Under the pieces are notes generated by a model that was not told where the DNA came from, searched no databases, and saw nothing but the letters and a program-made list of their open reading frames with translations. From Desulfurococcales archaeon (GTDB lineage Archaea > Thermoproteota > Thermoprotei_A > Sulfolobales > Desulfurococcaceae): a DNA stretch of 64,000 nucleotides. The position numbers and the translations under genes are program-made. Positions 43,990 to 48,079 of the stretch are shown here, one piece after another. Each line of letters begins with the position of its first letter. Positions within the stretch are counted from its first letter, which is position 1. Where the stretch lies: NCBI GenBank assembly GCA_027022365.1, contig JALVYU010000007.1, positions 124,001 through 188,000 of the forward strand. Direction: 5' to 3'.

Positions 43990-45048
43990 TTGCGTCCGGA
44001 GACAAGCGTAGGTATAATTGGCTGGGGATCATATATTCCCCGTTGGCGCTTACCATTATCAGAGATCGCAAAACTATGGGGGTTCGCCCCAGAAACACCA
44101 CGGGGCCTGAACGTAGTTGAAAAGGCTGTGGCAGGGAGAGACGAAGACGCTGTAACCATGGGCTGGGAAGCCGCTCGTAACGCCCTTCTAAGAGCAGGTA
44201 TAGATCCGAAGGAGATAGAGGCCGTATGGTTCGGAACAGAATCTAAGCCATACGCAGTAAAGCCTTCAGCCACAATCATTGCCGAAGCCCTAGGAATAAC
44301 ACCAGATACAATGGCTACAGACCTCGAATTCGCCTGTAGAGCGGGGAGCGAGGCATTGAGAATAAGCATAGGAGCCGTCGCATCCGGCCTAGTTAAATAT
44401 GCTCTCGTTATCGGTAGCGATACAGCCCAAGCCAATCCAGGCGATATACTCGAGTTCACAGCCTCGTCAGCGGCTACAGCGCTTATAACAGGTCCTGCGA
44501 GAGAAGCAGCGGCGGTTTTCGAGGCAAGCCACACCTATGTCACCGATACCCCGGACTTCTGGCGCAGGGCGCATCAGCCCTACCCGTTGCACGGTGAGGG
44601 ATTTACTGGCGAACCAGCATACTTTCACCATATAGTAAACGCCGTTAAAGGCCTTCTAGAACAAACAGGGCTCGAACCCAATGATTTTGACTATGTAGTC
44701 TTCCACCAGCCAAACGGTAAATTCCCGTTAGCCGTGGCAAAGAGGCTGGGATTCCCCAAGGAGAAGGTGCTGCCAGGCCTAGTCGCACCATACATTGGTA
44801 ATAGTTACAACTCATCGGCACTGATAGGCCTATCGAGGATCCTAGACATAGCTAAGCCTGGACAGAGAATATTGTTAGCACCATTCGGAAGCGGAGCAGG
44901 CAGTGATGCATACAGCATTGTAGTAACTGATAAAATCCTTGAGAAACAGGATAAGGCGCCGAAAGTCGATGATTACATCAATAGAAAATATCTGATCGAT
45001 TATGCTACCTATGCTAAATTCAGAGGAATAATCACACGTATAAGGTGA
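43990..45048 (+). CDS. hmgcs: Hydroxymethylglutaryl-CoA synthase, archaeal type
   Basis: 352 residues. It condenses acetyl-CoA with acetoacetyl-CoA for isoprenoid lipid synthesis. The thiolase fold shows the catalytic cysteine C116 in [12 protein letters not shown], the acid in [13 protein letters not shown] (E84), the histidine in [11 protein letters not shown] and [10 protein letters not shown]. The TTG start is preceded by GGGGTGAAG. It is followed 6 bp later by the DUF35 partner; the acetoacetyl-CoA thiolase that usually sits in this operon is absent. Confidence 0.95.
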
Positions 45049-45054
45049 AAGACC

Positions 45055-45483
45055 ATGAGGTTCTCAATCCCAAGGTACTGGAGGGAAAGACACAGCCACT
45101 ACAGACTATACGCGAAGAAATGCCCTAAGTGCGGCCGAGTAAACTATCCACCATCAAACATCTGCAGATACTGCGGCTCAACAGAGCTCGAAGACTACTA
45201 TCTCGACAGCGAGAAAGCCAAGATAATCTCCTGGACAATAATCTACCCAGCACCGGAGGGCTTCGAAGAGCAGAGACCACGGATCATAGCTCTACTAGAA
45301 ACCCTAGAGACAAAAACCCACATAATAGCGCCACTAGCAGATATACTTCCGGAGGAGGTAAAGGAAGGACTAATAGTGGAGCCTGTCCTTAGAAGGATAA
45401 AAGAAGATAGAGAAGCCGGACTAATACACTATGCAATAGCTTATAGGCCGGTGATAGGGTCAATTGGGACAAATAAGCAATGA
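45055..45483 (+). CDS. DUF35 OB-fold/zinc-ribbon protein, partner of HMG-CoA synthase and thiolase
   Basis: 142 residues. The rubredoxin-like zinc ribbon has C23, C26, C37 and C40 (KCPKCGRV, ICRYCGS), followed by an OB fold (IISWTIIYPAPEGFEEQRP). In archaea this protein scaffolds thiolase and HMG-CoA synthase so that acetoacetyl-CoA is channelled. ATG start 6 bp after the synthase; its end overlaps the HMGR-like gene by 20 bp. Confidence 0.93.
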   Translation: MRFSIPRYWRERHSHYRLYAKKCPKCGRVNYPPSNICRYCGSTELEDYYLDSEKAKIISWTIIYPAPEGFEEQRPRIIALLETLETKTHIIAPLADILPEEVKEGLIVEPVLRRIKEDREAGLIHYAIAYRPVIGSIGTNKQ

Positions 45484-46543
45484 AGATATCAAGAAAATAT
45501 TCGAGGAAATAGGAGAATCCGATGAGACATTAAGAGAACTGGAGAAGAAACTCGACAATGAAAACCTGGCCGCACTGGTAAGGAGAAAGTTTTTTGAGAA
45601 AAAACTCGGCATATCACTTTCAGCGACAGGCTCTTCTATACTGGATTTCGTCGATACAGAGGGAAGAATATCTTACAGGCCTATCGGTGCGATACAAATA
45701 CCAGTAACAATAATCGGTCCCGTTGATGTTGAAGGAGAGGAGGTACGGGGCCCGAAATACATCCCATTATCATCAATATATCCTGCACTCATGGAAACAA
45801 TGGATCTAGGGGTATCCATTAGCCGTAACACGAAAATAGTTGTAAAAACCGAGAATTGCTGGATACGCATATTCAACATAGGTAGGCAAGAGAAATGCTT
45901 GCAGATAGAATCAGTGATCAAGACTGAGAACAAAAAGCTTCACATTCTCTGCTATGGAAGAGAGTCAGGGGGACTTGTAGAATCAATACTGATCGGCGAA
46001 GCTGCTCCCTGTAAAACAATTAAGTCAATGATCACTAATGGAGAGGTTGAGAAGCTGGTAAAAATAATTGGGCCGACAAAGATCCCTATACTTGCCCCAT
46101 ACATCACGCTGGACTATAGGCTATCGGTCTTCATCCCGAGACTTACTCTCTCATCCATGGGTATAGGGCAATCAGAAATAGTGAAAACATATAATGCTCT
46201 AGAAAATATGAAGGGAATAGACAATTCAATAATACCGATAACCCTTGGCGTCCTAACATCCTTTTACCTATCGATAGGGATCAAGCCTGAATACGCTCTG
46301 AGAAGCGAGATCAGGAGATACTACCTTATAAGCGGTTTCCGCGGATTAAGACTTGGCCTGGATATACGCATAGCCCTACCTTACGCTGTATCGGAATCTG
46401 AGCAAACAATAATGAATAGAGAGTTATACAGCATCATAGACGGTGGAAGAATAAATCCTTTAATAGTAGGAGAACTAGCATCTTCTCTAGCGCTTATATC
46501 CTATATCGGAGAACTAGCTATGATCGCCAGAGGCGCTCCTTAG
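45464..46543 (+). CDS. HMG-CoA reductase homologue, probably catalytically inactive
   Basis: 359 residues. The N-terminus follows archaeal class I HMG-CoA reductase: ALVRRKFFEKKLGISL, then IGAIQIPVTIIGPVDVEG and the GPKYIPL strand, and the C-terminus ELASSLALISYIGELAMIARG matches the family's last helices. However, SSIY (residues 103-106) replaces the TTEG that carries the catalytic glutamate, and neither DAMGMN nor GQD is recognisable. A genuine reductase is presumably elsewhere. Position in the mevalonate operon suggests a retained structural or regulatory role. TTG start within the DUF35 gene. Confidence 0.75.
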   Translation: MGQISNEDIKKIFEEIGESDETLRELEKKLDNENLAALVRRKFFEKKLGISLSATGSSILDFVDTEGRISYRPIGAIQIPVTIIGPVDVEGEEVRGPKYIPLSSIYPALMETMDLGVSISRNTKIVVKTENCWIRIFNIGRQEKCLQIESVIKTENKKLHILCYGRESGGLVESILIGEAAPCKTIKSMITNGEVEKLVKIIGPTKIPILAPYITLDYRLSVFIPRLTLSSMGIGQSEIVKTYNALENMKGIDNSIIPITLGVLTSFYLSIGIKPEYALRSEIRRYYLISGFRGLRLGLDIRIALPYAVSESEQTIMNRELYSIIDGGRINPLIVGELASSLALISYIGELAMIARGAP

Positions 46544-48079
46544 CAACGATACCAACTGTTCATACTCACCAGCCGCAATCTTATCACATAGTTTATCGAT
46601 AACTATTTTTGACCATGGAAGCTCTTCGCCCGGCTCATAACCATTGAATACGTAATTAATACTATAGTTTGTCATTTTCAGCGCCTTCCTCCATCCAGAC
46701 AGGCCGCCACCAAACTTGGCGGCCTGTAGTAAGGTCTCAGAAATGTCTCTTCCCGCCAATGCAATTGCAGCTTGCATCACAGCCCATCTCACATCATAGT
46801 CTCTGAAATCAACATGTCTTCGCAACCTATTTTTCAGTGATTTTATTAAACGCTTGAGCCTAACGGGGTCGGGCATACCTATCCACTGAAACAGCGTCCT
46901 TGGCTTAGGGATGAGAGGATTTACACTAACAACTATCTTTCTACCCTTCCTCTTCGCCCTACTACTTATTTTTTCTATATATTTTATTTCATCAAGATCT
47001 ATATTTTCGAGTCCTCTAACACCTACTATCATGTATATCTTTAGGTCGAATCCTTTATCAAGTATTAATTCTAGATCATCAAGCAATTCTTTTCCATAGT
47101 ATTTCCCGAAAACATATTTCTTGGCGGGAAGAAATGATTCTGGAGCAATTGTGATGGTTTTCTGGCCAAGCCTACTTATTAATTCTAGAGAATCTTCATC
47201 AAGATGATCGATCCTCATACTTGGAAGCACAGCACCAATATTGTTTTCCACCAAATACTCCAATAATTCCTTCTCGTAATGATTGCCTAGGAAACATAAT
47301 GAGTAAATAACTATTCTATTTACATTATTCATGCGTATACCATGCTCAACAAGATTTTTCATAACATGAAAACTCCGCACACGATACGGCTTGAATAATC
47401 TGCCCTCCATGCAGAACCTACACCAGTATTTGCAGCCCCTGCTTGTTTCGAGGAGGAAGCCACGGCCATAGACAGGCTCGATCTCTGTATTCTGGATTTG
47501 TTTAACTGGATAGAATGACTTATCTAGATCACTGACAAAGGATTTTCTGGCGTTCTCCTTAATATCCGGAACATAGACGTCATTATATGAAGCTATCTTC
47601 TCTAGGTATTCCTTCTTATCCCTAATTTCAACCCAATCCTTGACGAGACGCGGGATAGTGTTCTCGATTTCTCCAATTATGAATGCGTCAATGAAATCAG
47701 AGTAAGGTATAGGATTGGATATCACTACCGGGCCGCCAGCAATTATAACTTGTTTTCTCTTTTTTCTATATGGTTCTATACCTGCAGATAGGAGAGCTCT
47801 AAGAACATCTATTATTGAGAGCTCGTAGTGGAGGCTCACGATGATCAGTTCGAAGCTCCTAAGAGGGGCTCCTGTCTCTATACTTCTAGGAGGGGGTTCT
47901 TCTCCTTGGAACTTCTTTATGTGGAAGCGTTCCAAGTATACATCATCTATATTGTTTACCATATAGTATATCATATGGGTTGGGAGACTAGATAACATAG
48001 CCTCATATGTGGACGGAAATAAATAGGCGATTCTGGCCATACCAGCCCTAAATTTTTTAAGTACAAGATTGAATTCCAT
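46514..48079 (-). CDS. Radical SAM protein with B12-binding-like N-terminus (COG1032)
   Basis: 521 residues. The N-terminal about 180 residues resemble a cobalamin-binding Rossmann-like domain (RIAYLFPSTYEAMLSS, VIIAGGPVVISNPIPY). The cluster motif CKYWCRFC gives C216, C220 and C223, followed by the radical SAM barrel with VVSVNPLIPKPRTLFQW, which is common in COG1032 enzymes. The reaction is unknown; methylation or methylthiolation-type chemistry is possible. It starts at ATG 48079 behind GGGGAGGC. Its 3' end overlaps the convergent HMGR-like gene by 30 bp. Confidence 0.85.
   Translation of the reverse strand: MEFNLVLKKFRAGMARIAYLFPSTYEAMLSSLPTHMIYYMVNNIDDVYLERFHIKKFQGEEPPPRSIETGAPLRSFELIIVSLHYELSIIDVLRALLSAGIEPYRKKRKQVIIAGGPVVISNPIPYSDFIDAFIIGEIENTIPRLVKDWVEIRDKKEYLEKIASYNDVYVPDIKENARKSFVSDLDKSFYPVKQIQNTEIEPVYGRGFLLETSRGCKYWCRFCMEGRLFKPYRVRSFHVMKNLVEHGIRMNNVNRIVIYSLCFLGNHYEKELLEYLVENNIGAVLPSMRIDHLDEDSLELISRLGQKTITIAPESFLPAKKYVFGKYYGKELLDDLELILDKGFDLKIYMIVGVRGLENIDLDEIKYIEKISSRAKRKGRKIVVSVNPLIPKPRTLFQWIGMPDPVRLKRLIKSLKNRLRRHVDFRDYDVRWAVMQAAIALAGRDISETLLQAAKFGGGLSGWRKALKMTNYSINYVFNGYEPGEELPWSKIVIDKLCDKIAAGEYEQLVSLLRSASGDHS

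Follow-up and report, generated by a model that had tools for sequence, protein, structure and literature searches.

A degenerate class I HMG-CoA reductase, very probably a pseudoenzyme under selection, in a mevalonate gene cluster of Desulfurococcales archaea

The third gene of a mevalonate cluster in a heat-loving Desulfurococcales archaeon (ORF 45464-46543) descends from a class I HMG-CoA reductase (HMGR) and has lost the catalytic motifs of that enzyme. The gene product is very probably a pseudoenzyme, that is, an enzyme homologue that lacks the catalytic residues and is maintained by selection. HMG-CoA reductase, which acts in membrane-lipid synthesis, is a textbook control enzyme. Positions refer to the window, the whole stretch of 64,000 nucleotides that was analyzed, and the features discussed are collected in Table 1.

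RESULTS

Similarity to HMGR is concentrated at the N terminus

The family model TIGR00533 matched residues 11 to 136 of the ORF with an E value of 2.6e-13 and a score of 49.7 bits, short of the cut-off of 441.8, and PF00368 scored 19.4 bits, short of the cut-off of 27. PDB entry 6hr7 matched residues 30 to 135 (E value, 8e-7), and profile-profile alignment with hhalign, in which 12 homologues of the 360-aa form represented by the ORF were set against 16 intact class I HMGRs, gave a probability of 99.7% over residues 1 to 118 and nothing beyond residue 118. Similarity to HMGR was far above chance and confined to the N-terminal third of the protein (roughly the first 120 to 135 residues); this region was 45 to 47% identical to intact class I enzymes, and the remainder was 12 to 16% identical. 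When an AlphaFold2 model with a mean pLDDT of 66.7, in which residues 47 to 104 fell below 50, was compared with the PDB by Foldseek, the 29 best matches were all HMGRs (E values, 1.9e-7 to 5.5e-4). Judged by this predicted model, the ORF beyond the N-terminal region is HMGR-like at the level of the fold only. The initial annotation had placed HMGR landmarks at both ends of the protein, of which the N-terminal part was recognizable by sequence and the C-terminal part was recoverable only as a fold. The best matches were to class I, and the ORF is not a class II HMGR. We conclude from the N-terminal region, the fold, and the syntenic slot described below that the ORF shares common descent with the class I HMGR superfamily.

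The catalytic motifs have been lost

Within the part of the profile-profile alignment that is confident, Tyr106 of PLSSIYP occupied the position of the catalytic Glu in PLATTEG, in agreement with the earlier reading of the TTEG motif as SSIY. The Glu was replaced by Tyr in all six tabulated 360-aa copies, and IYP was invariant in 12 of 12. Inclusion of class II sequences distorted the core, and the motif alignment was therefore made without them; in that alignment, DAMGMN, DKKP, GQD, and the C-terminal His were absent from the protein. The aligned catalytic columns held other residues or gaps, except that some copies had a Lys where the first catalytic Lys would be, with no DKKP motif around it. 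Because the core alignment is uncertain, the Lys, Asp, and His assignments are weaker than that of the Glu; the annotated absence of DAMGMN and GQD was confirmed, with their column placement in the core uncertain. The marks of a functional class I HMGR were lacking throughout, namely the Glu, the Lys/Asp/His residues, DAMGMN, and scores at the PF00368 and TIGR00533 cut-offs. We conclude that the ORF is indeed a degenerate HMGR, as first annotated, with an HMGR-derived N terminus and fold from which the catalytic motifs are gone.

Table 1. Features of the gene cluster and of the degenerate HMGR (positions in the window)
Feature	Positions	Strand	Remarks
Archaeal HMG-CoA synthase, first cluster gene	43990..45048	+	NF003274 / TIGR00748 above cut-off
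DUF35/ChsH2-like protein (zinc ribbon + OB fold)	45055..45483	+	PF12172 and PF01796 above cut-off
Class I HMGR pseudoenzyme (very probable)	45464..46543	+	359 aa, TTG start
20-bp overlap, pseudoenzyme start / DUF35 end	45464..45483	+	
Retained N-terminal region, residues 1-118, including dimerization element PIGAIQIP	45464..45817	+	hhalign, identity
TTEG slot = SIYP	45773..45784	+	Catalytic Glu replaced by Tyr106 at 45779-45781
DAMGMN (cofactor motif) slot = SGGLVE	45965..45982	+	Alignment, core less certain than N terminus
GQD slot = GIK	46277..46285	+	Catalytic Asp replaced by Lys; alignment, core less certain
Convergent radical SAM gene (TIGR03960-like), synteny-block marker, outside the system	46514..48079	-	

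The ORF occupies the ancestral class I slot

The cluster is tightly packed, with the ORF following the genes for HMG-CoA synthase and DUF35. The annotated coupling of the ORF to DUF35 by overlap was borne out, and overlaps of the same kind were present at the other 360-aa loci and at several intact class I loci. M1 and G2 were invariant across 12 homologues of the ORF. The survey covered 40 genomes of the window family (f1), and the named relatives in the genome collection were Desulfurococcales MAGs and Staphylothermus sp. AUK105. In three genomes (G007, G008, and G011), the HMG-CoA synthase and DUF35 genes were followed by an intact class I HMGR and then by the radical SAM gene, and each of the three had an additional class II copy elsewhere; the intact operon enzyme of G008 was assigned to class I by its match to PDB 6hr7 (E value, 5.5e-140). 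The dead 360-aa form was found in the same slot in the window genus and in several other genera, whose copies were 43 to 48% identical to the window protein. Two genera carried a shorter, more diverged form of 253 to 274 aa in that slot, and the remaining family genomes with a readable locus had other genes after HMG-CoA synthase and DUF35. The radical SAM neighbor was common to intact, 360-aa, 260-aa, and gene-less loci. We conclude that the ORF sits in the ancestral class I slot of the operon.

In a tree of HMG-CoA synthase and DUF35, the 360-aa copies formed one clade with the intact copies outside it, and the short forms and gene losses fell in the sister group of that clade, with partly low support within the sister group. 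Because the gene has been lost in other lineages that have class II HMGR, it is not universally essential. One genome without the pseudoenzyme gene (G014; L094:1343-2818) had HMG-CoA synthase and DUF35 fused in a single 491-aa ORF, and its sister genome keeps the short form. In genome G010 (L097:327-3000), a different HMG-CoA synthase-thiolase-DUF35 cluster was present; its synthase shared 57% identity with the window synthase, which points to replacement of the entire cluster. Thiolase was missing from the window operon, as had been noted, and one thiolase gene was located elsewhere in the genome (G000:C31). At four loci of the window family (L167, L173, L170, and L177), thiolase was found outside the mevalonate cluster, adjoining a gene that resembled an acyl-CoA carboxylase subunit, as judged from its N terminus only.

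An intact class II HMGR is encoded elsewhere in the genome

A search for a second, intact HMGR, proposed with the initial annotation, found one on contig C11 of the window genome. The C11 enzyme was of class II, with P. mevalonii HMGR (1qax) as its best PDB match (E value, 9.8e-130), and the class II motifs were kept, with small variants, in 40 of 40 aligned copies. Class II HMGR presumably provides the reductase activity in this organism. Because an intact class II enzyme is encoded elsewhere in the genome, the window gene is a displaced ancestral class I HMGR and no recent duplicate, and the earlier designation as a paralogue has to be given up; the working enzyme belongs to class II and lies at another locus. 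Nearly all genomes with a degenerate class I gene carried class II HMGR, the two exceptions being MAGs. No class II gene was found by search in G027 and G033, MAGs that have a 360-aa copy.

Degenerate class I HMGRs in other families

Degenerate copies were also found in family f6, at 228 to 237 aa in G109 to G111 and G099 and at 398 to 407 aa in G093 and G094, where TTEG was replaced by TTRR or TTRK, and in family f3, in G122 (354 aa) and in G134 and G135. A direct search confirmed class II HMGR in G093, G094, G099, G109, G122, G134, and G135, and in G110 and G111 it adjoined the degenerate gene. Thiolase was retained in the operons with degenerate copies in G109 to G111 and G099. No DUF35 was found in G122, yet the degenerate copy there follows HMG-CoA synthase; that MAG also held two class II copies (L132 and L133) beside the degenerate one. 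In families f2 and f9 and in genus g18 of f3, HMGR scores lay in the class II range, and no HMGR-like ORF followed DUF35 in the representative genomes inspected. Degenerate class I HMGR likely had at least three origins, because the families are distinct, other members of f1 and f6 still have an intact class I enzyme, and the class II copies occupy separate positions in the class II tree. The deep branches of the class I tree itself were weakly supported.

In two species of family f11 (G046, L134:1586-2846; G184, L135:1440-2700), the class I HMGR was split into a 108-aa ORF and an ORF of 300 to 315 aa, the frame being offset by one base at a stretch of six or seven T immediately ahead of TTEG. 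The split could be a programmed frameshift or transcriptional slippage that also yields the N-terminal region alone, or a sequencing error in both species. The split gene was considered as proof of a separate N-terminal module and was downgraded, as the junction looks like a frameshift or recoding site.

Degenerate copies are under purifying selection

The ratio of nonsynonymous to synonymous substitution (dN/dS) was computable in nine species pairs, which represented four types of degenerate copy; another two pairs were saturated. Values ranged from 0.04 to 0.22 with upper 95% bounds of at most 0.37, including pairs with dS above 0.6, and comparisons within the genus gave 0.04 to 0.28 where dS was unsaturated. 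The 360-aa form was constant in length (359 to 367 aa), with 43 to 59% identity between genera.

Intact class I enzymes were 58 to 68% identical to one another in the N-terminal region and 64 to 72% identical in the core. Degenerate copies were 37 to 59% identical to intact enzymes in the N-terminal region and 12 to 39% in the core. The N-terminal 100 residues or so were the best-kept part of all degenerate forms, and the core had collapsed; the forms of 228 to 274 aa had a core that was cut down and diverged beside a retained N-terminal region, and short forms matched class I over the first 90 to 95 residues or so only. By these identities, constraint in the degenerate copies has shifted away from the core and onto the N-terminal region. 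Four cysteines (C132, C145, C163, and C183; window 45857-46012) were invariant in 12 of 12 360-aa copies and may form disulfides or a metal site in a remodeled small domain.

DISCUSSION

Selection has probably preserved the pseudoenzyme as a non-catalytic partner that acts as a dimer, and the HMG-CoA synthase/DUF35 assembly is the most plausible candidate for what it binds. Among the solved structures of class I HMGR, the archaeal one included, the whole N-terminal subdomain of one monomer is swapped onto its neighbor (PMC10070635), and thus the part retained in the degenerate copies would largely be the dimerization region. Once catalysis had passed to class II HMGR, the class I protein would have been released from that task and maintained for a non-catalytic function residing in its N-terminal region. 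As a scaffold or regulatory subunit, the pseudoenzyme dimer may bind or regulate HMG-CoA synthase/DUF35, the assembly encoded beside it.

The choice of HMG-CoA synthase/DUF35 as the partner is itself put forward tentatively. DUF35 serves as a scaffold in the complex that archaeal thiolase and HMG-CoA synthase form (PMC6996347). Gene order gives no independent support, because the coupling to DUF35 was in place before catalysis was lost: in the ancestral arrangement HMGR already comes directly behind DUF35, with the gene intact in G007, G008, and G011, and the coupling was rejected as evidence of interaction. Moreover, several lineages lost the pseudoenzyme gene and kept both HMG-CoA synthase and DUF35, so the assembly sometimes dispenses with it. 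Replacement of a lost thiolase was also rejected, as relatives whose HMGR is intact already have thiolase away from the cluster, and degenerate copies adjoin thiolase in G109 to G111 and G099. The initial annotation had suggested a regulatory or scaffold subunit at the acetoacetyl-CoA/HMG-CoA step on the grounds of the DUF35 coupling and the missing thiolase. A non-catalytic role was upheld, with strong purifying selection in its favor, and the two original grounds, both already seen where class I is intact, fell away.

Alternatively, the remodeled core could make the protein a sensor of CoA, HMG-CoA, or an isoprenoid, or could carry a new activity, which seems unlikely. The four cysteines, W133, R135, and a GxKPEYxLR motif are among the invariants of the 360-aa core, and Foldseek also returned the regulatory domains of aspartate kinases. 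The aspartate kinase matches were weak, however (E value, 1e-3; low TM), and the small domain of HMGR is itself ferredoxin-like. Moreover, the forms of 228 to 274 aa have kept the N-terminal region beside a shortened, diverged core.

A regulatory or structural partner of class II HMGR, binding and tuning the new enzyme, is rather improbable. Class II HMGR also dimerizes, through its ENVxG element. Degenerate copies do share their genomes with class II HMGR, and in G109 to G111 and G099 the degenerate and class II genes are convergent neighbors, but displacement of class I by class II would in any case lead to such co-occurrence. Furthermore, the class II gene of the window genome lies on another contig, and the N termini of class I and class II enzymes are strongly different in sequence.

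Decay toward deletion of a functionless relic is very improbable: loss of the gene in other lineages of the same family and the shorter, more diverged 253- to 274-aa forms would fit it, but dN/dS was low, its upper bound staying well under 1 for all measurable pairs, and the 360-aa form has held its length and its identity between genera. It is extremely improbable that the protein still works as an HMG-CoA reductase by means of catalytic residues that have moved or been exchanged: its overall fold is HMGR-like, but the Glu is a Tyr within the confidently aligned block, the cofactor, Lys, Asp, and His motifs are absent, and the genome encodes an intact class II enzyme.

Relative to archaeal class I HMGR (6hr7/6hr8), the pseudoenzyme shares descent, operon slot, fold, and the N-terminal region with its dimerization element; it differs in lacking the catalytic Glu, Lys, Asp, and His and the cofactor motif, in its shortened small domain, and in its missing C-terminal tail. 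Class II HMGR of the P. mevalonii type is present in the same genome as a separate class at a locus other than that of the ORF. The window DUF35 is of the kind that scaffolds the archaeal thiolase/HMG-CoA synthase complex (6et9), and the role proposed for the pseudoenzyme is likewise that of a non-catalytic subunit at the same step, although the DUF35 fold is unrelated. An HMGR-derived subunit of the thiolase/HMG-CoA synthase complex was not found in the literature searched, nor was an HMGR pseudoenzyme or such a displacement of class I reported in the open literature searched, the coverage of which was incomplete.

A natural series, in which both classes are intact, a dead class I protein is kept, a dead class I protein is shortened, or the gene is lost, is repeated across archaeal families, and through it the catalytic role of class I HMGR can be told apart from a second function that the protein may have. 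It is possible, though less likely than not, that class I HMGR of Thermoproteota has a second, non-catalytic role in its domain-swapped N-terminal region, for example in organizing HMG-CoA synthase/DUF35, and that this role alone was retained after the class II takeover, so that dead HMGRs arose in parallel in three or more families. The series bears on how enzyme displacement may leave functional remnants and on the organization of lipid precursor synthesis in archaea.
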